Origin: Bacteroidaceae bacterium
GTDB lineage: Bacteria > Bacteroidota > Bacteroidia > Bacteroidales > Bacteroidaceae
Direction of reading: 5' to 3'
Assembly (NCBI GenBank): GCA_017507105.1
Contig: JAFWBM010000027.1
Span: forward strand, 62,001-126,000
Length of the DNA stretch: 64,000 nucleotides
Shown here: one piece after another, positions 4,367 through 48,523 of the stretch
Layout of the letters: every line of letters starts with the position of its first letter
Position numbering within the stretch: the first letter of the stretch is position 1
Translations under genes and position numbers: made by a program
Notes under the pieces: generated by a model
Database searches by the model: none
What the model was told of the DNA's origin: nothing
What the model saw: only the letters and a program-made list of their open reading frames with translations

Positions 4367-4813
4367 TTAAACAGCAACCTTAACTATTATCTTCTTAAGT
4401 TTAACAGGTGTTATTGCCGGTGCATGACCATCCTGAGGGAAGAATACTGCAAACATAGAGGTTGTTACATTCAGATAGTCTGTTGCTAACATCCCTACCG
4501 GATACAATGCCGCATCACTCTCTTCATTATAGTCACCCTCGGGTAGCTGCTCTTTAGGTATATATCCCATCACCTCATCGGCTGTGATTGGAATCTGTAT
4601 ATCGATATATTTGCGATGTATCTCTATTGGTGCCTCTTCCTTTGTTCTTGGCTGGGCCTCCATTACATTTGCAAATATCTCGTCACCACAAATCTCATTG
4701 CGTCCCAAAGGCAGTTTATCCAAATCTGTATTAAGGATAAACTCTATCGCTTTTGAAAAACGGGGATTCATTCCTGCATAAGCCTCAAGATTTTTAAGAG
4801 AATCTAAAATCAT
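4367..4813 (-). CDS. YhcH/YjgK/YiaL family protein (DUF386)
   Basis: 148 aa, the usual length for this cupin-fold family, which includes E. coli TabA, NanQ/YhcH and EbgC. Supporting motifs are the start MILDSLKNLEAYAGMNPRF, the central EIHRKYIDIQ and the C-terminal FFPQDGHAPAI with the metal-binding His. Family members are linked to sugar handling, for example sialic acid or galactoside anomer conversion, but the substrate cannot be read from the sequence. It sits 52 bases before the glgB start on the same strand and 20 bases after the MORN gene, so one transcript may cover all of them. Confidence 0.85.
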   Translation of the reverse strand: MILDSLKNLEAYAGMNPRFSKAIEFILNTDLDKLPLGRNEICGDEIFANVMEAQPRTKEEAPIEIHRKYIDIQIPITADEVMGYIPKEQLPEGDYNEESDAALYPVGMLATDYLNVTTSMFAVFFPQDGHAPAITPVKLKKIIVKVAV

Positions 4814-28813: not shown

Positions 28814-29380
28814 ATGAAGAATATCACAGATAAAATCAGAGGTTATTATAATGTATCCGACAAGGCACTACAAGCATTACAGAAAGAATTGAACGTAATG
28901 TATTGTAAAAAGAACACTATGCTTGTAAAGTCGGGAGTAACCGACTCAAACCTCTATTTTATTGAAAATGGTATCACACGTTCCATCTTTCACAAAGATG
29001 GAGTAGACACTACCACCTGGTTTAGCATGGAAGGAGATATAACATTCGGTATGTACTCCGTATACCACAACAAACCATCTGTAGAGAGTGTGGAAACACT
29101 TACCGACTGTACATTATATGCCATTCCCATAGATAAACTCAATCTATTATACGAAGAACATATTGAGATAGCCAATTGGGGACGCATTGTACATCAAGAT
29201 GTAAACCGCCTTCTAAGCCATCATTTTGTAGAGCGTATACAGATGAATCCTTATGAACGCTATCAATGTTTCCTAAGGCATTACCCGGGGCTGATAAACA
29301 GAATAAAACTCAAATATGTTGCTGAGTTTCTTGGAATCTCCATATATACATTAAGCAGGATAAGAAGAGAGATTAGATAA
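28814..29380 (+). CDS. Crp/Fnr-family transcriptional regulator
   Basis: 188 aa. The N-terminal cyclic-nucleotide-binding-like barrel (MLVKSGVTDSNLYFIENGITR, then TWFSMEGDITFG) is followed by a dimerisation helix and a short C-terminal winged helix with LKYVAEFLGISIYTLSRIRR. The barrel lacks the cysteines of Fnr and the consensus cAMP-binding Arg-Ser-Ser, so its ligand is unknown. These short Bacteroidetes members often regulate neighbouring genes; here the divergent metallopeptidase and the downstream acyltransferase are candidates. Confidence 0.82.
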   Translation: MKNITDKIRGYYNVSDKALQALQKELNVMYCKKNTMLVKSGVTDSNLYFIENGITRSIFHKDGVDTTTWFSMEGDITFGMYSVYHNKPSVESVETLTDCTLYAIPIDKLNLLYEEHIEIANWGRIVHQDVNRLLSHHFVERIQMNPYERYQCFLRHYPGLINRIKLKYVAEFLGISIYTLSRIRREIR

Positions 29381-38377: not shown

Positions 38378-41248
38378 ATGATACCATTCCTTAAATATGT
38401 TGCAGAGGACCTGTGCAAACGTTTCGATAACGACCTGCACAACATAGCAGTAGTATTTCCCAATAAACGTGCAGGACTATTCTTTAACGAATATCTGATG
38501 CAACTGAACGACCGCCCCATGTGGAGCCCCACATATATAACCATAAGCGAGTTGTTTCAGCAACAAAGCAGTGCTGCTATAGGTGACCCTATACTGCTTG
38601 TAAGCAAGCTCTACAAAGAGTATATACGACACACACAGAGCAATGAGAATATCGACAGTTTCTATAGCTGGGGCGAGCTTCTTATCAAAGACTTCGATGA
38701 CATAGACAAAAACATGGCCGATGCATCAAGTCTGTTTGCCAACCTTAAGGAATTACGCGACATAGGCAACACTGATGAAACACTTACAGAGGAACAGCGC
38801 AAAGCCATTGACCAATTCTTCAAAAACTTCAATCCCGAGAATGATAGTGAACTGAAACGCCGTTTTCTACGTATATGGCAAGTATTAGGCAATATATACG
38901 AGAGTTTCAAGAAAGAGCTACATAAATGCGGAATAGCATACGAAGGAATGTTATACCGCGACGTACTCGAGAAGAGTGAGCCTCTTACACTGCCCCACCG
39001 TATATATGCATTCGTTGGTTTCAATGCACTCAGCCGTGTAGAGAGTAATCTGTTCGAAAGATTAATGAAACAAGGAAGAGCTCTATTCTATTGGGACTAC
39101 GATGTAAGCTATATAAACGACCCACGTCACGAAGCAGCCCGTTTCATGCATCGTAATATTGCACTGTTCCCCAACGCCATAGATAATATCAGTTTCGACA
39201 ATATAGGAGATAAGAAATTCGATATAATATCCACCTCTACCGACAGCATCCAGATGCGTTACACCGCCCACTGGATCGATGAGCACATCGCAAAGGAGAA
39301 CGAAGAGATACGAGAAGTAGAAACAGCTGTCATACTATGCGACGAAAGTAAACTGGAATCGGTATATCACATAATACCTCCATCGGTCAAAGAGCGTAAC
39401 ATAACAATGGGATTTCCTGTATCACGTACACCTATATACAACCTTCTGCAACAACTTGTAATGCTGCAGACGCAGGGATACGACGAGGAACAACACACCT
39501 TTACACTTGAGACTGTACACAACATACTGAGCCACCCATATATAAAACGTCTGAGCGCAAAAGCCGGAGATATTGATAACCGTATAACATCGGAACGCAT
39601 CTTCTTTCCACCCCTTCATATGTTGCATGCCGACGAACTGATGAGGATGATTTTCACCCGACACACCGACAATATACTATGGATGTCATCTGTAGGAAAC
39701 ATCATACATTACATAGCAAAGAAAAGTGCCGAGGAGAATAAAGAAAAGGCTGATATATATAACGAAATCTTCCTCGAGGCACAACTGAAGGTTTTTTTAC
39801 AGACACAACGTCTTGTAAGCATACTGGGTGATGAAGATATGCCATTGAGCCAAAGCACGCTTGGTAGCCTGCTGCTACGCATTACAGCCGGCACATCCAT
39901 TCCCTTCCATGGCGAACCGGTGGTAGGCATGCAGATTATGGGACTGTTAGAGACACGCAACCTCGATTTCAAGAATATAATATTCGTATCGGCCAATGAA
40001 GGCAACCTCCCAAAGAAGAGTAGCGAAAACTCATTTATACCATATAATTTAAGGCGTGCCTTCGGACTTACATTAAGCGAACATCGCGACTCCATATACG
40101 CATACAACCTATACCGTCTGCTACATCGCGCTACAAACGTAACATTCATATACAATAGTTCGACAGAGGGTAACAACACTGGTGAGTGTTCGCGTTACAT
40201 ACTGCAACTGATAGCAAACGGCAATTGCGGCAATAAGAAATTTGTAACAACACCACAAAAAATTAGCGAATACAAGAGTATATCGGTTACAAAGACGCCT
40301 GAAATGATAGAGAAAATGATGCACCTCTACAACAGAAAGGAGAACAAAAGAGCAATAGCACTATCGCCAAGTGCAATAAATTGCTATCTCGACTGCAGCC
40401 TGCGTTTCTTCTACCGTTACATAATGGGAGTCGAAAAATATAAAGAGGTTGTAAACGAGATACAAAAGAACGATTTTGGACTGATATTCCATAAAGCATC
40501 GGAACTGTTCTACGGTTCGCTATTGCCACATGGGAAAGGAGAAGTAAAAAAAGAGATGTTGCAACCATACATAGACAGCCCCACACAACTATACACATTT
40601 ATTGACCGCGCATTCGCAATAGAGTATTTCAAACAAGAGGATAGCGAAGATAAACGACCCGAATACAATGGCGAACAGCTCATAAATCGCGAAGTATTGC
40701 AATGTATGCTTGGCTACCTTATTAGAATGGATGCACAACATGCACCATTCAACTACGTTGGAGGTGAGTTGCCACTATATTTCACACTCGGTACTACCGT
40801 AAACAAGCGAGATATAGAATTATGTATAGGAGGTCGCACCGACCGCATGGACATTAAAGATGACACACTGCACATCATAGACTACAAGACGGGCAGTAAA
40901 GAAGAGAAGCCCAAAGACTTAACACAAGTCTTTGCACACGAGGGTAAAACCATGAAATACATATTGCAGGCACTTCTCTATTCTGTAGCTGCACTCGAAA
41001 GCGGAATAGCAACAAAGGTAGCCCCATCACTTATATATATACATAAAGCACAAAATACCCTACGCGACGATTTCATAATAAAGATTGGAGGCGAGACACT
41101 ATACGATGCATCACCACTACGCGAAGAGTTCAAGGCACTACTAAAAAACACAATAGACAACATTTTCGACATTAATCAAGAATTTGTACCGACCGATGAT
41201 GAAGACAGGTGCCAATGGTGCGATTTCAAGAATATTTGTAACAGATAA
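38378..41248 (+). CDS. addB: AddB-like nuclease subunit with iron-sulfur staple
   Basis: 956 aa. The N-terminal region is helicase-like without a usable Walker A (VFPNKRAGLFFNEYL). The PD-(D/E)xK nuclease is near the C-terminus: GRTDRMDI, IIDYKTGSKEE and QALLYSVA. Cysteines for a 4Fe-4S cluster are seen as CYLDCS before the nuclease and CQWCDFKNIC at the very end, the arrangement of AddB and related nucleases. It completes the AddAB complex with the gene 20 bases upstream. Its end is directly followed by the tracrRNA of the CRISPR locus on the opposite strand. Confidence 0.88.
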   Translation: MIPFLKYVAEDLCKRFDNDLHNIAVVFPNKRAGLFFNEYLMQLNDRPMWSPTYITISELFQQQSSAAIGDPILLVSKLYKEYIRHTQSNENIDSFYSWGELLIKDFDDIDKNMADASSLFANLKELRDIGNTDETLTEEQRKAIDQFFKNFNPENDSELKRRFLRIWQVLGNIYESFKKELHKCGIAYEGMLYRDVLEKSEPLTLPHRIYAFVGFNALSRVESNLFERLMKQGRALFYWDYDVSYINDPRHEAARFMHRNIALFPNAIDNISFDNIGDKKFDIISTSTDSIQMRYTAHWIDEHIAKENEEIREVETAVILCDESKLESVYHIIPPSVKERNITMGFPVSRTPIYNLLQQLVMLQTQGYDEEQHTFTLETVHNILSHPYIKRLSAKAGDIDNRITSERIFFPPLHMLHADELMRMIFTRHTDNILWMSSVGNIIHYIAKKSAEENKEKADIYNEIFLEAQLKVFLQTQRLVSILGDEDMPLSQSTLGSLLLRITAGTSIPFHGEPVVGMQIMGLLETRNLDFKNIIFVSANEGNLPKKSSENSFIPYNLRRAFGLTLSEHRDSIYAYNLYRLLHRATNVTFIYNSSTEGNNTGECSRYILQLIANGNCGNKKFVTTPQKISEYKSISVTKTPEMIEKMMHLYNRKENKRAIALSPSAINCYLDCSLRFFYRYIMGVEKYKEVVNEIQKNDFGLIFHKASELFYGSLLPHGKGEVKKEMLQPYIDSPTQLYTFIDRAFAIEYFKQEDSEDKRPEYNGEQLINREVLQCMLGYLIRMDAQHAPFNYVGGELPLYFTLGTTVNKRDIELCIGGRTDRMDIKDDTLHIIDYKTGSKEEKPKDLTQVFAHEGKTMKYILQALLYSVAALESGIATKVAPSLIYIHKAQNTLRDDFIIKIGGETLYDASPLREEFKALLKNTIDNIFDINQEFVPTDDEDRCQWCDFKNICNR

Positions 41249-41265
41249 ATAATACCAACCAACAT

Positions 41266-41299
41266 ACCGCTCCCTGCAATCTAAGTTGCAGGGAGCGGT
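41266..41299. terminator. GC-rich hairpin between addB and the tracrRNA
   Basis: A 14-bp perfect stem (41266-41279 with 41286-41299), loop TCTAAG, 18 bases after the addB stop. There is no good T-run on the plus strand, so termination of the sbcDC-addAB transcript here is likely but not certain. Confidence 0.65.
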
Positions 41300-41304
41300 G
41301 TATA

Positions 41305-41382
41305 TAAAAAGCGAAACCGACAGGCCCCGCTTTAAGTGTTTTCACAACGGAATAATCCTTATTGTGATTTGCTCAAAATTGT
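41305..41382 (-). ncRNA. tracrRNA of the type II-C CRISPR system
   Basis: Read on the minus strand, the RNA starts with TACAATTTTGA then GCAAATCACAA (complement of 41361-41383). This is a near-perfect antirepeat: it pairs with the 5' part of the crRNA-sense repeat (TTGTGATTTGC, a two-base bulge, then TCAAAATTGTA). Next comes a nexus-like hairpin in which CACAA pairs with TTGTG around AAGGATTATTCC, then a linker, then a terminator hairpin (41308-41313 with 41328-41333) and a T-run. A promoter lies just upstream with spacing that puts the start near 41381. Expected length is about 78 nt. It guides pre-crRNA pairing and Cas9 loading. Confidence 0.88.
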
Positions 41383-41386
41383 ACTG

Positions 41387-41416
41387 CAAATATAACACTA
41401 ATATTCAATATTCAAA
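41387..41416 (-). promoter_or_regulatory. tracrRNA promoter
   Basis: On the minus strand: TTTG (complement of 41413-41416), 18 bases, TATATTTG (complement of 41387-41394). This fits the Bacteroidetes vegetative promoter and starts transcription at the first base of the antirepeat. Confidence 0.75.
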
Positions 41417-41478
41417 TAATAAATCGCTTTATTTAAGATAAACTCAATACATATTCAGCACTATCCGATAAATATTCA
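41401..41478. repeat. Four copies of ATATTCA in the tracrRNA/cas9 control region
   Basis: The heptamer ATATTCA occurs at 41401-41407, 41408-41414, 41451-41457 and 41472-41478. The first two are adjacent and overlap the tracrRNA -33 box. This could be an operator, or chance in an AT-rich region. Confidence 0.4.
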
Positions 41479-41509
41479 AAAAAACTGATATTTTTTTCCT
41501 TATTTTGTA

Positions 41510-41602
41510 TACATTTGAGGTAAACCTCGAAAATAATCTGCACTCGCTGTGAAAAATATTGAAGCAAGCTTCACATTTCTCGCTCGTTTGTGTGTATATT
41601 TG
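41510..41602 (+). promoter_or_regulatory. Putative cas9 promoter region with two -7 boxes and inverted repeats
   Basis: Perfect TAnnTTTG boxes occur at 41510-41517 (TACATTTG) and 41595-41602 (TATATTTG), the latter 29 bases before the cas9 ATG. Neither has a convincing -33 TTTG. Between them are small inverted repeats: GAGGT/ACCTC at 41517-41528 and TGAAGC/GCTTCA at 41560-41573, which may form a leader hairpin if transcription starts at the first box. Confidence 0.45.
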
Positions 41603-41630
41603 AAGATATCATATAATCAACCACAAGAAT

Positions 41631-44600
41631 ATGAAAAAGATATTAGGACTTGACTTAGGAGTAAACAGCATAGGATGGGCATTAGTTAATGAAGCAGAGA
41701 ATAAAAATGAAACTTCTTCTATAATTAAATTAGGAGTAAGAGTAAATCCACTTACAACTGATGAGCAAACCAACTTTGAAAAAGGAAAAAGCATTACAAC
41801 GAATGCTGACAGGACTCTTAAGCGTGGAATGCGCCGTAACCTTCAACGCTATAAACTAAGACGTAATAATCTTATTGAATGTTTAAAGAGCAATAATATT
41901 ATCACAAAAGATACCATTTTATGCGAAGATGGTAACAGAACAACCTTTGAAACATATCGTTTGCGTGCAAAGGCTGCAACCGAAGAGATTACGCTGGAGC
42001 AGTTTGCACGCGTATTGCTCATGATAAATAAAAAGCGTGGATATAAAAGCAACAGAAAAGCCAACAGCACTGACGAGGGAAAAGCAATAGACAGCATAAG
42101 CATAGCAAAGGAACTATACGAAAGAGGTATAACACCCGGACAATATATACACCAACGCTTGAGCCTTAATAATAATTATATTCCTGAGTTTTACACATCG
42201 GACCTTAGAGCTGAGTTTGACAGAATCTACGCCAAGCAACAAGAATATTATCCCGACATACTCAGTCAGGAACTGTACGATGAAATAAGCGGCAAAAACA
42301 GCAAGGCAACATACGCAATCATAAACAGCCACGGTATAACAACGGCCGAGAACAAAGGTGCCGATAAAAAAAGAACTACATATAGTTGGCGTAACGACGC
42401 TGTTAGCAAACAATTGCCTATTGAAATAGTGGCTTATGTTCTTGTTGAACTTAACGGAGCCATAAACAATAGCAGCAACTATCTTGGAGCAATCGGTGAC
42501 AGAAGCAAGCAACTGTACTTCGAACATATGACAGTTGGTCAGATGCTGATGAAAGAACTCGACAAAGATCCCAACACAAGCCTCAAGAACAGAGTCTACT
42601 ACCGTCAGGATTACCTCGACGAATTCGAATGCCTATGGGAGACACAGCATAAATTCCACAAAGAACTTACCCCAGAACTCAAACGCGAAATCCGCGACAT
42701 TATCATATTTTATCAACGTAACCTGAAGAGTCAGAAGGGGCTTGTTTCACTATGTCAATTCGAAAACAAAGAGATAACAATAACCACTGATGGTGTGGAG
42801 AGAAGACGCATGATAGGTCGCAGAGTATGTCCAAAATCATCACCATTATTTCAGGAATTCAGAATATGGCAGGCGCTTAACAACCTTGTAGTTGAAAACA
42901 TTGAAACAGGGGAAAAACATTACCTTGATATAGAGGAAAAAGAAATACTCTTCGAGGAACTAAACACAAAGTACAGACTGAAGAAAAACGAGATACTCAA
43001 AATTCTCAATTACAGCCACCGCAACTTTGACCTTAACTACGAACAGGTAGATGGTAACAAGACCAATGCCACCCTGCTCGAAGCTGTCAGGAAAATACTT
43101 GTTGCAATGGGCTATAGCGAACAGAATTTTGACAAACTAAAAAGCGAGGATATATATAAAACCATTGAACAGATATTTACTGTACATAATATTGATTGCA
43201 GTTTCCTTCATTTTGACTCAGAGGCTGCCAACATTGAGCAAGAGCCGCAATACCGTTTATGGCATCTGCTCTACTCATACACTGAGGATAAATCGCGTAG
43301 CGGCAACGAGAGTCTTGTTAAAAAGATATCGTCACTTACGAATTTAGACGAAGAGTGTGCCCGAATAATGGCAGGCATCACATTCGAGCCCGATTACAGC
43401 AACCTGTGCAGCAAAGCAATATCTAAAATACTTGTACACTTGAAAGAGGGTAACAAATACGATGTTGCATGCACATACGCAGGCTACAATCACTCGAATT
43501 CACAAACAAGAGAAGAGCTATTGTGCAGAACATATAAAGATATCCTTGAGCAGTTGCCACGCAACAGCCTGCGTAATCCCGTAGTTGAGAAAATTCTCAA
43601 CCAGATGATTAATGTCATCAATGCTATAATAATAGAATATGGCAAGCCCGACGAAATACGCATTGAGCTTGCACGCGAACTCAAAAGTAGTGCAAAAGAA
43701 CGTGAAGAGGCAACAAAAAACATTAATGAAACAACAAAAAAGCACGAAGGAATAAAGAAAATACTACGCGAAGAATTTGGTATAAAAAACCCGAGCCGCA
43801 ACGATATTATACGCTACAAACTATATACCGAATTGAAAACAAACGGTTATAAGACACTATACTCTGATACATATATCCCACAAGAAGAACTTTTTACCCA
43901 TAAATTCAACATAGAACATATTATTCCACAATCACGTCTGTTCGACGATTCATTCTCGAACAAGACACTTGAAGCTATGGATATAAACATTGATAAAGGC
44001 AATGAAACTGCCTATGACTACGTTATATCGAAATATGGCAAAGAGAAAGCAGAAGAGTATAAGGTAAAGATTGAGGAATTATACAGAGCAGGAGCAATAA
44101 GCAGGACAAAACGCGACAAACTGCTCATGTGTGGCTGTAACATACCCGATGATTTTATAAACCGCGACCTACGCGACACGCAATATATTGCACGCAAGGC
44201 TTGCGAGATACTTGAACAAATAGTGCCACATGTTGTGTCAACAACAGGTAAGATAACAGACCGTCTGCGCGAAGATTGGCAACTCATTGACACAATGCAA
44301 GAACTTAATTGGGATAAGTACGGCCGTCAAGGATTGATTCAAACAGTTACTAACAGAGAAGGACAAGAAATAAAAAAAATAAAAGACTGGACAAAACGTA
44401 ATGACCACCGCCACCACGCGATGGACGCACTTGTCATAGCCTTTACAAAGCGAAGCATCATACAATATCTAAACAATCTGAATGCAAGGAGTGACAAGAG
44501 TGGCAGTATATATGCTATAGAAAGAAAAGAACTGAAAAGAGACGATCATGGCAAACTGCGTTTCATTGTGCCGTTTGAGAATTTTCGCGATTCTGCGCGC

Positions 44601-45728
44601 ATGCAATTAGAAAATATTCTTGTATCAATTAAATCGAAAAACAAGGTAATAACAAAAAACACCAACAAGACAAAAGCCAATGGTGGCAAGGTTAATAAAC
44701 GTCTGCAACTGACCCCACGCGACACATTGCACAAGGAGTCTGTATATGGCAGTATACAACGCTATGTGACATTTACGGAAAAAGTGGGTGCAACATTCGA
44801 TGCCGAACGCATTGCAATGGTAAGCAATGAATGCCAACGTAATGCACTGCTTGCACGATTGGAGCAGTTTGGCGGTGATGCAAAAAAAGCCTTTACAGGC
44901 AAGAACTGCCTTGAGAAAAGACCTCTTTATATAGATGCAGATACATGTGTACCCCCTAAAGTAAAATTAGTACGTTTGGAGGCTGTGTACACAATACGCA
45001 AAAGCGTAGATAGCACGCTGAAAGTAGAAAAGGTTGCCGACAAGAAAGTAAGACAGATACTGCGCCAACGCCTGTCTGAATATGGTGACGACGCACAAAA
45101 AGCTTTCTCTAACCTCGAAGAAAATCCAATATGGCTTAACAAAGAAAAAGGAATAAGCATAAAGCGTGTAACTATAATAGAGAACATAAACGCAATACCT
45201 TTACGAGAGAAACACGACCACTACGGCAATACAATAACAGATGCAAACGGTAAGAAACATCCGTGCAACTTTGTAAACCCCGGCAACAATCACCACGTTG
45301 CAATATACAAAGATACAGACGGGAACTATCAAGAAAATATAGTAAACTTTTTTGAAGCGACAGCACGCGCCATAAACCAGCAACCGATAATAGACCGTGA
45401 GCACAACGCACACTTAGGGTGGCAATTCTGTTTCTCTATGAAGCAGAACGAATATTTTGTATTCCCCAACGAAGCAACAGGATTCTACCCCGAAGAAATA
45501 GACTTGATGAACCCCGATAACTACAATATCATAAGTCCTAATCTTTACAGAGTACAAAAACTATCATCTAAATATTATGTATTCCGCCACCATCTTGAAA
45601 CAAAAATTGAAGATTTAAAAGAGCTGCAGGGTATAACATGGAAACGAATAACTGCATTGCAAAACCTTAATGGCATTGTAAAAGTACGAGTAAACCACAT
45701 TGGTCAAATAGTACATATAGGAGAATAG
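41631..45728 (+). CDS. cas9: Cas9 endonuclease, type II-C
   Basis: 1365 aa. RNA-guided double-strand DNA nuclease. All catalytic parts are intact: RuvC-I LGLDLGVNSIGWA (Asp8), the Arg-rich bridge helix RRNLQRYKLRRNNL, RuvC-II IRIELARELK (Glu679), HNH FNIEHIIPQS (His763) with FSNKTL (Asn777), and RuvC-III DHRHHAMDALV (His929, Asp932). It is longer than Campylobacter or Neisseria II-C Cas9 (~1000-1080 aa), but this size is usual for Bacteroidetes II-C proteins. Absence of csn2 and cas4 places the locus in II-C. First gene of the cas operon; cas1 starts three bases after its stop. The PAM-recognition domain should be the C-terminal ~250 residues. Confidence 0.97.
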   Translation: MKKILGLDLGVNSIGWALVNEAENKNETSSIIKLGVRVNPLTTDEQTNFEKGKSITTNADRTLKRGMRRNLQRYKLRRNNLIECLKSNNIITKDTILCEDGNRTTFETYRLRAKAATEEITLEQFARVLLMINKKRGYKSNRKANSTDEGKAIDSISIAKELYERGITPGQYIHQRLSLNNNYIPEFYTSDLRAEFDRIYAKQQEYYPDILSQELYDEISGKNSKATYAIINSHGITTAENKGADKKRTTYSWRNDAVSKQLPIEIVAYVLVELNGAINNSSNYLGAIGDRSKQLYFEHMTVGQMLMKELDKDPNTSLKNRVYYRQDYLDEFECLWETQHKFHKELTPELKREIRDIIIFYQRNLKSQKGLVSLCQFENKEITITTDGVERRRMIGRRVCPKSSPLFQEFRIWQALNNLVVENIETGEKHYLDIEEKEILFEELNTKYRLKKNEILKILNYSHRNFDLNYEQVDGNKTNATLLEAVRKILVAMGYSEQNFDKLKSEDIYKTIEQIFTVHNIDCSFLHFDSEAANIEQEPQYRLWHLLYSYTEDKSRSGNESLVKKISSLTNLDEECARIMAGITFEPDYSNLCSKAISKILVHLKEGNKYDVACTYAGYNHSNSQTREELLCRTYKDILEQLPRNSLRNPVVEKILNQMINVINAIIIEYGKPDEIRIELARELKSSAKEREEATKNINETTKKHEGIKKILREEFGIKNPSRNDIIRYKLYTELKTNGYKTLYSDTYIPQEELFTHKFNIEHIIPQSRLFDDSFSNKTLEAMDINIDKGNETAYDYVISKYGKEKAEEYKVKIEELYRAGAISRTKRDKLLMCGCNIPDDFINRDLRDTQYIARKACEILEQIVPHVVSTTGKITDRLREDWQLIDTMQELNWDKYGRQGLIQTVTNREGQEIKKIKDWTKRNDHRHHAMDALVIAFTKRSIIQYLNNLNARSDKSGSIYAIERKELKRDDHGKLRFIVPFENFRDSARMQLENILVSIKSKNKVITKNTNKTKANGGKVNKRLQLTPRDTLHKESVYGSIQRYVTFTEKVGATFDAERIAMVSNECQRNALLARLEQFGGDAKKAFTGKNCLEKRPLYIDADTCVPPKVKLVRLEAVYTIRKSVDSTLKVEKVADKKVRQILRQRLSEYGDDAQKAFSNLEENPIWLNKEKGISIKRVTIIENINAIPLREKHDHYGNTITDANGKKHPCNFVNPGNNHHVAIYKDTDGNYQENIVNFFEATARAINQQPIIDREHNAHLGWQFCFSMKQNEYFVFPNEATGFYPEEIDLMNPDNYNIISPNLYRVQKLSSKYYVFRHHLETKIEDLKELQGITWKRITALQNLNGIVKVRVNHIGQIVHIGE

Positions 45729-45731
45729 CCT

Positions 45732-46996
<1,265 letters not shown>

Positions 46997-47000
46997 AATT

Positions 47001-47028
47001 AAAAATCCCGCATTAATGCGGGATTTTT
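47001..47028. terminator. Bidirectional terminator between cas2 and the CRISPR array
   Basis: A perfect 28-base palindrome (47001-47014 with 47015-47028) with an A-run on one side and a T-run on the other. It ends the cas transcript on the plus strand and, with equal symmetry, the pre-crRNA transcript on the minus strand. Confidence 0.9.
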
Positions 47029-47104
47029 AACCGAAAACCAAACTGTTTTTTTATTTCTAAAATCAGTCTTAATTCTTTGATATATATCATTTTGTACATA
47101 TTGT
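47029..47104. other. Leader-like sequence at the cas-proximal end of the array
   Basis: 76 AT-rich bases. They contain a 12-base palindrome (TGATATATATCA, 47078-47089) and a fragment at 47042-47061 that resembles the first 20 bases of the repeat (ACTGTTTT then TATTTC). All 17 repeats nearest this end are identical, so new spacers are probably added here. Confidence 0.5.
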
Positions 47105-48485
47105 ACTGTTTTCGATATTTCAAAGATACAATTTTGAAAGCAAATCACAACCCATTTGGCAATCCGAATTTGTTTGGATAACTGTTTTCGATATTTCAAA
47201 GATACAATTTTGAAAGCAAATCACAACATCGCATCATCTACTGATTCTGTTATATCGACTGTTTTCGATATTTCAAAGATACAATTTTGAAAGCAAATCA
47301 CAACAGGCTCTAATGCTGCAAAAGTTTCAACTTACTGTTTTCGATATTTCAAAGATACAATTTTGAAAGCAAATCACAACCACTTCACCACATCTAATTT
47401 TATGTCATTGACTGTTTTCGATATTTCAAAGATACAATTTTGAAAGCAAATCACAACGATAATCTTAATGTCTTTTTCTTTGATGATACTGTTTTCGATA
47501 TTTCAAAGATACAATTTTGAAAGCAAATCACAACCATAACCTGACCAATTATTGAACAGCTTGACTGTTTTCGATATTTCAAAGATACAATTTTGAAAGC
47601 AAATCACAACAAACTTTGATTTTTAATATCAAATTCTTTAACTGTTTTCGATATTTCAAAGATACAATTTTGAAAGCAAATCACAACATGTGCGTTAACC
47701 CTATTTTTATGCGTTCAACTGTTTTCGATATTTCAAAGATACAATTTTGAAAGCAAATCACAACCGGACAACCCTGCCTTGTATACAAGGTGGACTGTTT
47801 TCGATATTTCAAAGATACAATTTTGAAAGCAAATCACAACAGGCTTTTATAATAGCCTTTTTTTGTTGGAACTGTTTTCGATATTTCAAAGATACAATTT
47901 TGAAAGCAAATCACAACCGGTTCTAATGCCGCTAAAGTTTCTACTAACTGTTTTCGATATTTCAAAGATACAATTTTGAAAGCAAATCACAACATCACTT
48001 TTGCTATCTTCTTTCGCTTCTCGACTGTTTTCGATATTTCAAAGATACAATTTTGAAAGCAAATCACAACCACATCTCTGTATTATATTCCTGTGTCTCA
48101 CTGTTTTCGATATTTCAAAGATACAATTTTGAAAGCAAATCACAACATAAGTTTTTTAGTCGTTTAGAGCCTCTTGACTGTTTTCGATATTTCAAAGATA
48201 CAATTTTGAAAGCAAATCACAACGTGAGGGTTATCTGGATACAAATATCGGTGACTGTTTTCGATATTTCAAAGATACAATTTTGAAAGCAAATCACAAC
48301 AAATTGAGTTATGTGCGAAAGCATGTAGATACTGTTTTCGATATTTCAAAGATACAATTTTGAAAGCAAATCACAACACATAACCAAATGCCAAAAAACA
48401 AATGCAACTGTTTTCGATATTTCAAAGATACAAATTTAAAAGCAAATCACAACGACATATCGTCAATATCAAGCGGACTGTTTTC
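47105..48485 (-). CRISPR. Type II-C CRISPR array: 18 full 47-nt repeats, 17 spacers of 29-30 nt, decayed distal end
   Basis: Repeats start at 47105, 47181, 47258, 47334, 47411, 47488, 47564, 47641, 47718, 47794, 47871, 47947, 48024, 48100, 48177, 48254, 48331 and 48407. In crRNA sense (minus strand) the repeat starts GTTGTGATTTGC and ends CGAAAACAGT. Repeats 1-17 are identical; repeat 18 differs at a few bases (CAAATTTAAAAGC). After a 23-base remnant (48454-48476) a broken repeat keeps only its first nine bases (48477-48485). crRNA sense is fixed by pairing with the tracrRNA, so the array is read towards cas2. Each repeat holds TATCTTTG, a perfect -7 box, in crRNA sense. Confidence 0.98.
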
Positions 48486-48523
48486 TATATTATATGTTTT
48501 AAAGAACCACTATATTCTATCTA

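Follow-up and report, generated by a model that had tools for sequence, protein, structure and literature searches.

Pairs of spacers explained by escape and re-acquisition are already in print for the type I-C system of Legionella pneumophila ST222. According to the available part of that report, LME-1 is targeted in overlapping regions by two spacers from a single array, and the older spacer carries seed or PAM mismatches, which its authors read as escape followed by primed acquisition (PMC5071653). For type II systems, the portion available of a Streptococcus mutans type II-A study gives 12% as the share of newly acquired spacers that differ from the phage (PMC8265633), and that of a Flavobacterium columnare type II-C study describes phages with altered protospacers that arise after a spacer (6 of 18 C1 spacers; PMC5524643). 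A description of twin pairs in type II-C was not noticed in our literature search, whose poor cover of subscription journals means that this is no proof of absence.

We analysed a stretch of 64,000 nucleotides from a Bacteroidaceae bacterium, hereafter the window, whose CRISPR array holds a pair of related but diverged spacers. The features of the locus, in window coordinates, are as follows.

41306..41385, minus strand: predicted tracrRNA, with an anti-repeat at 41362-41383 followed by a hairpin (AAAGCG...CGCTTT) that has a T run; the start and end of the unit are predictions
41631..45728, plus strand: cas9, 1365 aa; TIGR01865 (518 bits), RuvC_III, HNH_4, PF18541, PF13395
45732..46667, plus strand: cas1; TIGR03639 (type II), 329 bits; PADLOC Cas1_II
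46664..46996, plus strand: cas2; TIGR01573; PADLOC Cas2_II
47040..47104, strand not given: leader side, the probable integration end; a left-flank motif common to many relatives' arrays, recognised by eye
47105..48453, minus strand: CRISPR array, 18 repeats of 47 nt and 17 spacers of 29-30 nt
47305..47333, minus strand: spacer 3, probably the newer of the pair; PAM side at 47305, oriented from the tracrRNA and the leader
47918..47946, minus strand: spacer 11, probably the older of the pair; 23/29 identical to spacer 3, in register
48407-48453: last repeat of the array, with 2 mismatches; the other 17 repeats are identical

Judged by its genes, the window array is a type II-C CRISPR-Cas system: the cas9 product has RuvC and HNH domains, and cas1 and cas2 are of type II. 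Neither csn2 (II-A) nor cas4 (II-B) is present among the plus-strand ORFs of at least 90 aa in 41249-48523, which are cas9, cas1 and cas2 only; the minus strand there has four ORFs of 91-137 aa outside this check, three of them inside cas9 and one mostly over the start of cas1. The upstream neighbour (38378-41248) encodes a 956-aa PD-(D/E)XK protein that Cas4 models match weakly (22 bits). The same genome carries a second type II locus (L034; G000:C42, 439-1989 and 2112-6992), with a cas9 of 1214 aa (PADLOC), a cas1 similar to that of the window, a cas2-sized ORF and an array of 36-nt repeats (n = 24) in which spacers 4 and 7 are identical.

The predicted anti-repeat consists of 22 bases on the minus strand upstream of cas9 that match the repeat save for a 2-nt gap, within a tracrRNA-like unit preceded by the promoter-like TATATTTG and trailed by a terminator-like hairpin. 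This makes the minus strand the one from which the crRNA is read, so that position 1 of each spacer, as written here, is the PAM-proximal end. Independent support comes from the protospacers of relatives' spacers, whose PAM side lies on the left and is purine-rich in the crRNA direction. Both the predicted tracrRNA and these protospacers would thus put the PAM to the left of position 1, and the crRNA direction is the one found in the available text on the F. columnare type II-C system (PMC5524643). Concerning age, a motif in the left flank of the window array recurs in many relatives' arrays and right flanks look unrelated, both judged by eye, and the last repeat is degenerate in several arrays. 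New spacers therefore most likely enter at the left, so that spacer 3 would be newer than spacer 11.

Two further observations concern the array itself. The PAM-adjacent base of the window spacers (position 1) is A in 9, C in 6, G in 2 and T in none (n = 17), which may reflect either target choice or the integration boundary. The motif TAnnTTTG, the -7 promoter motif of Bacteroidota, occurs in the crRNA direction, outside the anti-repeat match, in 37 of 41 distinct repeats of the window's repeat family, these repeats being related and not 41 independent cases. Every repeat of the family may thus hold a putative internal promoter.

The first-pass annotation had proposed that spacers 3 and 11 are diverged copies of one coding protospacer, and their relationship is evident. 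The two sequences match at 23 of 29 positions at zero shift and differ at positions 1, 4, 13, 16, 25 and 29; translated from the plus strand, each gives GSNAAKVST. In the window, the wobble pattern of this peptide occurs at these two places only, and it never occurred in 100 shuffles. The runner-up among all pairs of the 17 window spacers has 17 matches, and when all 17 spacers were shuffled 200 times and compared on both strands at offsets from -6 to 6, the best pair averaged 16.4 matches and never exceeded 20. Five of the six differences do share one codon phase, as had been pointed out, but this argument is weaker than claimed (p = 0.053, binomial over three phases; p = 0.026, position shuffling). 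The preference for the plus frame is unsupported: the plus frame and the minus frame opposed to it share their wobble bases, so phase cannot favour a strand and the argument comes down to one F/L change.

No credible protospacer of spacer 3 or spacer 11 was found in viral contigs, species genomes, family genomes or by BLAST against phages and plasmids, nor, in less thorough searches, of the other 15 window spacers. The first-pass annotation had looked to matches in homologous genes with a common PAM for confirmation, and the databases searched thus offered nothing on which such a comparison could be made. In 2.9 million viral contigs the wobble pattern had one match (L005), 24/29 identical to spacer 3 and antisense to an 886-aa jumbo-phage-like structural gene. 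This gene is read in the minus frame (VVTLAALDP), which is again contrary to the preferred plus frame, although about one such match is expected by chance, as estimated from information content. The minus-frame pattern had no match in the viral contigs, and the 20-nt core had four (L008-L011), each of at most 23/29 and in unrelated contexts, which were dropped as chance; the one in L011 falls in an ORF which we take to be adenine-methyltransferase-like (KETFAALES) and might be a weak lead. In species genomes the wobble pattern occurred at seven places in scattered phyla, with 18-22 matches in the six that were scored (L029, at a stretch edge, was unscored), and these were also dropped. The 399 family genomes, searched with up to 3 mismatches, held no match beyond spacers 3 and 11 themselves. 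Nothing credible came from BLAST of the array against phages and plasmids, or from phage BLAST with spacer 3 and spacer 11 as separate queries. The best match of spacer 11 (E 0.2) lies in a Lactobacillus phage virion gene whose PHROG differs from that of the L005 gene and whose protein does not contain VETLAALEP, and the best phage matches of the array (E 0.01 upward) involve either the repeat sequence or AT-rich parts of spacer 7, in some cases together with repeat.

The window pair was therefore compared with the arrays of its relatives. The 15-mer that ends the window's repeat, AAAGCAAATCACAAC, is present in 55 of 399 family genomes, 36 of which (window included) gave a first set of 44 array segments; these contain 629 spacers, which form 7408 pairs within segments. 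In the order, 32 genomes matched, two of them already covered by the first set, and 18 of the 32 supplied a second set of 21 segments, 347 spacers and 3844 pairs. Both sets together comprise 65 segments and 976 spacers. Segments are chains of repeats, so that some loci yield two or more and some segments start with a broken repeat; spacers of 26-34 nt (first set) and 24-36 nt (second set) were kept, L066, a locus with an unreadable repeat length, was excluded, and loci L123 and L131 contain masked stretches. Besides 11 diverged clusters at offset 0, of which the window is one, the first set holds 3 pairs of adjacent exact copies and 4 overlaps that are shifted or on opposite strands, against 0, 1, 0, 0 and 1 pairs in five shuffled controls at the same threshold. 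The second set contains four pairs at offset 0, two diverged and two exact, and no others; its five shuffled versions contained no pair. Across both sets, 13 in-register diverged clusters (window included) thus stand against 4 shifted or opposite-strand overlaps. In-register twin pairs are nevertheless a minority feature, and most segments are without any. A single match of at least 21 was listed between segments of the first set: two pieces of locus L101 contain an identical spacer. In locus L100 (G109:C18), 10 of the 36 spacers belong to diverged same-site pairs.

Two classes of twin can be told apart by where their differences fall, taking positions 1-8, the PAM-proximal ones, as the seed and clusters with at most 3 differences as close. 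The six close clusters all belong to the first set; of their 11 differences, 9 are seed differences (expected 3.0, p 0.0003, in the same set in which this concentration was first noticed and then tested), and the majority codon phase accounts for 9 of 9. Leaving the window aside, the first set has four clusters with more than 3 differences, in which 6 of 23 differences are in the seed (expected 6.2) and 15 of 23 in phase (p 0.03). For the second set, predictions were fixed before it was scored; it yielded just 2 diverged pairs, each with more than 3 differences. Both are in register as predicted, with a phase bias (8/10, p 0.013) and a non-significant seed count (5/10, p 0.08). Over all 13 clusters the seed takes 22 of 50 differences (expected 13.5, p 0.004). 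When clusters with two or more differences are counted, the majority phase takes 37 of 48 (expected 26.2, p 0.00005); both signals persist without L100, which holds five clusters (seed p 0.007, phase p 0.00005). The window pair belongs to the distant class, codon-phased and without seed concentration. Its seed holds 2 of the 6 differences (expected 1.7, p 0.54), and the directed re-acquisition after viral escape that the first-pass annotation offered as an option is consequently not shown for it. For the close pairs of relatives, escape by seed mutation followed by re-acquisition at the same site would be the natural reading of their sequences.

Some of the relatives' spacers do have protospacers. 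For spacers of L103 the matches are to Parabacteroides phage PDS1 and related phages as well as to microviruses, and spacers of L100, namely the pair 19/36 and spacer 35, match microvirus major capsid genes. PDS1 is identical to L103 spacer 12, and the newer spacer 8 represents the same site changed at position 4; similarly, the microvirus bases at positions 4 and 13 are present in L100 spacer 36 and missing from the newer spacer 19. A phage match with no more than 2 mismatches exists for 14 spacers. It is perfect for 4 of these; the remaining 10 have 13 mismatches in total, of which 9 fall in positions 1-8 (p 0.002), or 8 of 13 (p 0.01) if L103 spacer 6 is set against viral contig L118. Indeed, the seed mismatch of that spacer disappears against viral contigs L117 and L118, so part of such mismatches is ordinary polymorphism. 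With best matches of up to 4 mismatches (18 spacers), 19 of 29 mismatches are synonymous, 8 nonsynonymous and 2 outside genes, and of the in-gene seed mismatches of the 14 closest spacers 4 of 7 are synonymous (L103 spacers 5, 7, 10 and 21, versus 6, 15 and 47), which is no strong excess. This mismatch pattern would fit spacers taken from escape or sister variants of the phages, and acquisition errors, which in S. mutans II-A fall at the opposite end (PMC8265633), would seem to fit it less well. The cores of four close pairs from relatives were used as patterns against viral contigs, where none of the four occurred, and phage BLAST returned no usable protospacer for L104 or L096 and weak matches only for L069. 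A stretch resembling the II-C repeat was also observed in phages, at 1489-1534 of L109 (Bacteroides phage BS162P1) and in the Riemerella phages CRP19 (29301-29342) and GDF21 (4678-4719); of these phages BS162P1 was inspected, and the stretch is possibly a solo repeat or a repeat mimic.

Together, these observations suggest that spacers 3 and 11 were acquired separately at one and the same protospacer, spacer 11 before spacer 3, from two mobile elements, most likely phages, that are related but have diverged, a reading to which we assign a probability of roughly 0.83. Of the alternatives offered by the first-pass annotation, independent acquisition from diverged elements thus remains the best: 17 of 18 repeats are identical, the neighbours of spacers 3 and 11 are mutually unrelated and not duplicated, and in-register, codon-phased pairs recur in the repeat family. 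A PAM shared at the left edge would account for the exact register, and the phase of the differences suggests that the target is probably coding. Cas9 interference is generally sensitive to mismatches in the PAM-proximal seed. Because the two spacers differ at positions 1 and 4, which are PAM-proximal, and again at 13 and 16, the crRNA of spacer 11 was probably non-protective against the second element, so the second acquisition would have restored immunity.

A rival account, unlikely for this pair, is a same-site update guided by Cas9, in which the mismatched older crRNA still finds the site of an escaped phage and steers Cas1-Cas2 to the same protospacer. The near-identical clusters of the first set (at most 2 differences per pair, exact copies excluded unless shifted) are 6 in register against 2 shifted, even though shifted PAM sites should outnumber the exact one. 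If all PAM sites with at least 14 nt of overlap were equally likely, the in-register share would be 1 in 5 to 1 in 17, depending on the assumed PAM frequency, and the excess has p values of 1e-6, 4e-5 and 1e-3 at assumed frequencies of 1/4, 1/8 and 1/16. The seed bias of the close clusters (9/11) points the same way, as does the fact that in both pairs with a known protospacer (L103 12/8 and L100 36/19) it is the older spacer, not the newer, that agrees with the database phage at the differing sites. However, strongly preferred protospacers combined with selection for escape phages would look no different, identical spacers also occur at non-adjacent places (L121 3/5, L131 1/24, L034 4/7), small ssDNA phages offer few sites, and the register ratio is unreplicated, the second set having no close diverged pair. 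The register excess may thus stem either from preferred protospacers or from an old crRNA guiding capture, and the data do not separate the two. The window pair, moreover, has no seed concentration. That the type II-C systems of this order update their memory in place, the window pair being an old update whose seed signal was blurred by divergence, would accordingly be a doubtful extension.

Paralogous copies of one gene or repeat within a single element, perhaps met in one infection, would likewise yield register and codon-phased differences. We hold such an origin to be improbable: the searches gave it no supporting match, and in the one comparable case, a very small sample, both L103 variants (8 and 12) point to the same place in PDS1. 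Still less probable is that spacer 3 is an in-array duplicate of spacer 11 that later mutated; exact adjacent duplicates do occur in relatives (L068 8/9, L087 12/13, L084 3/4), but the copies in the window lie 8 units apart among identical repeats and unduplicated neighbours, and five of their six differences fall in one phase. Chance similarity can practically be discounted, since none of the 200 shuffles of the 17 spacers went above 20/29, even if one of about 400,000 random pairs of window 29-mers also reached 23 matches.

Twin spacers of one array can be regarded as a fossil record of one phage site met on two occasions. Should a larger set confirm the excess of pairs in exact register with changes in the seed, preferential Cas9 re-acquisition of an escaped site becomes testable, and escape mutations become readable from host genomes alone, without the phage sequence.

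With respect to known systems, the Legionella case, as far as its available text goes, is a type I-C system with a known element that the newer spacer matches (PMC5071653), whereas the window pair is of type II-C, its target was not found, and its changes run along the whole length instead of being concentrated in the seed as in a Legionella-type pair. By its repeat, the II-C system of B. fragilis is also close; its 47-nt repeat belongs to the same family and ends in AAAGCAAATCACAAC like that of the window (PMC9367070, Table 1); the spacer content of this system is very variable, and in the available text of that study diverged twin spacers are unmentioned and the terms 'same protospacer' and 'similar spacer' are absent. 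The F. columnare work differs in being an isolate time series, its available text does not contain 'same protospacer', and the four most specific changes in it are non-synonymous (PMC5524643). Finally, in the accessible part of the S. mutans II-A report, mismatches of new spacers lie mainly at the 5', PAM-distal side and leave the seed largely intact (PMC8265633). The close pairs described here show the opposite, with their changes in the seed, which argues against acquisition error as their origin.
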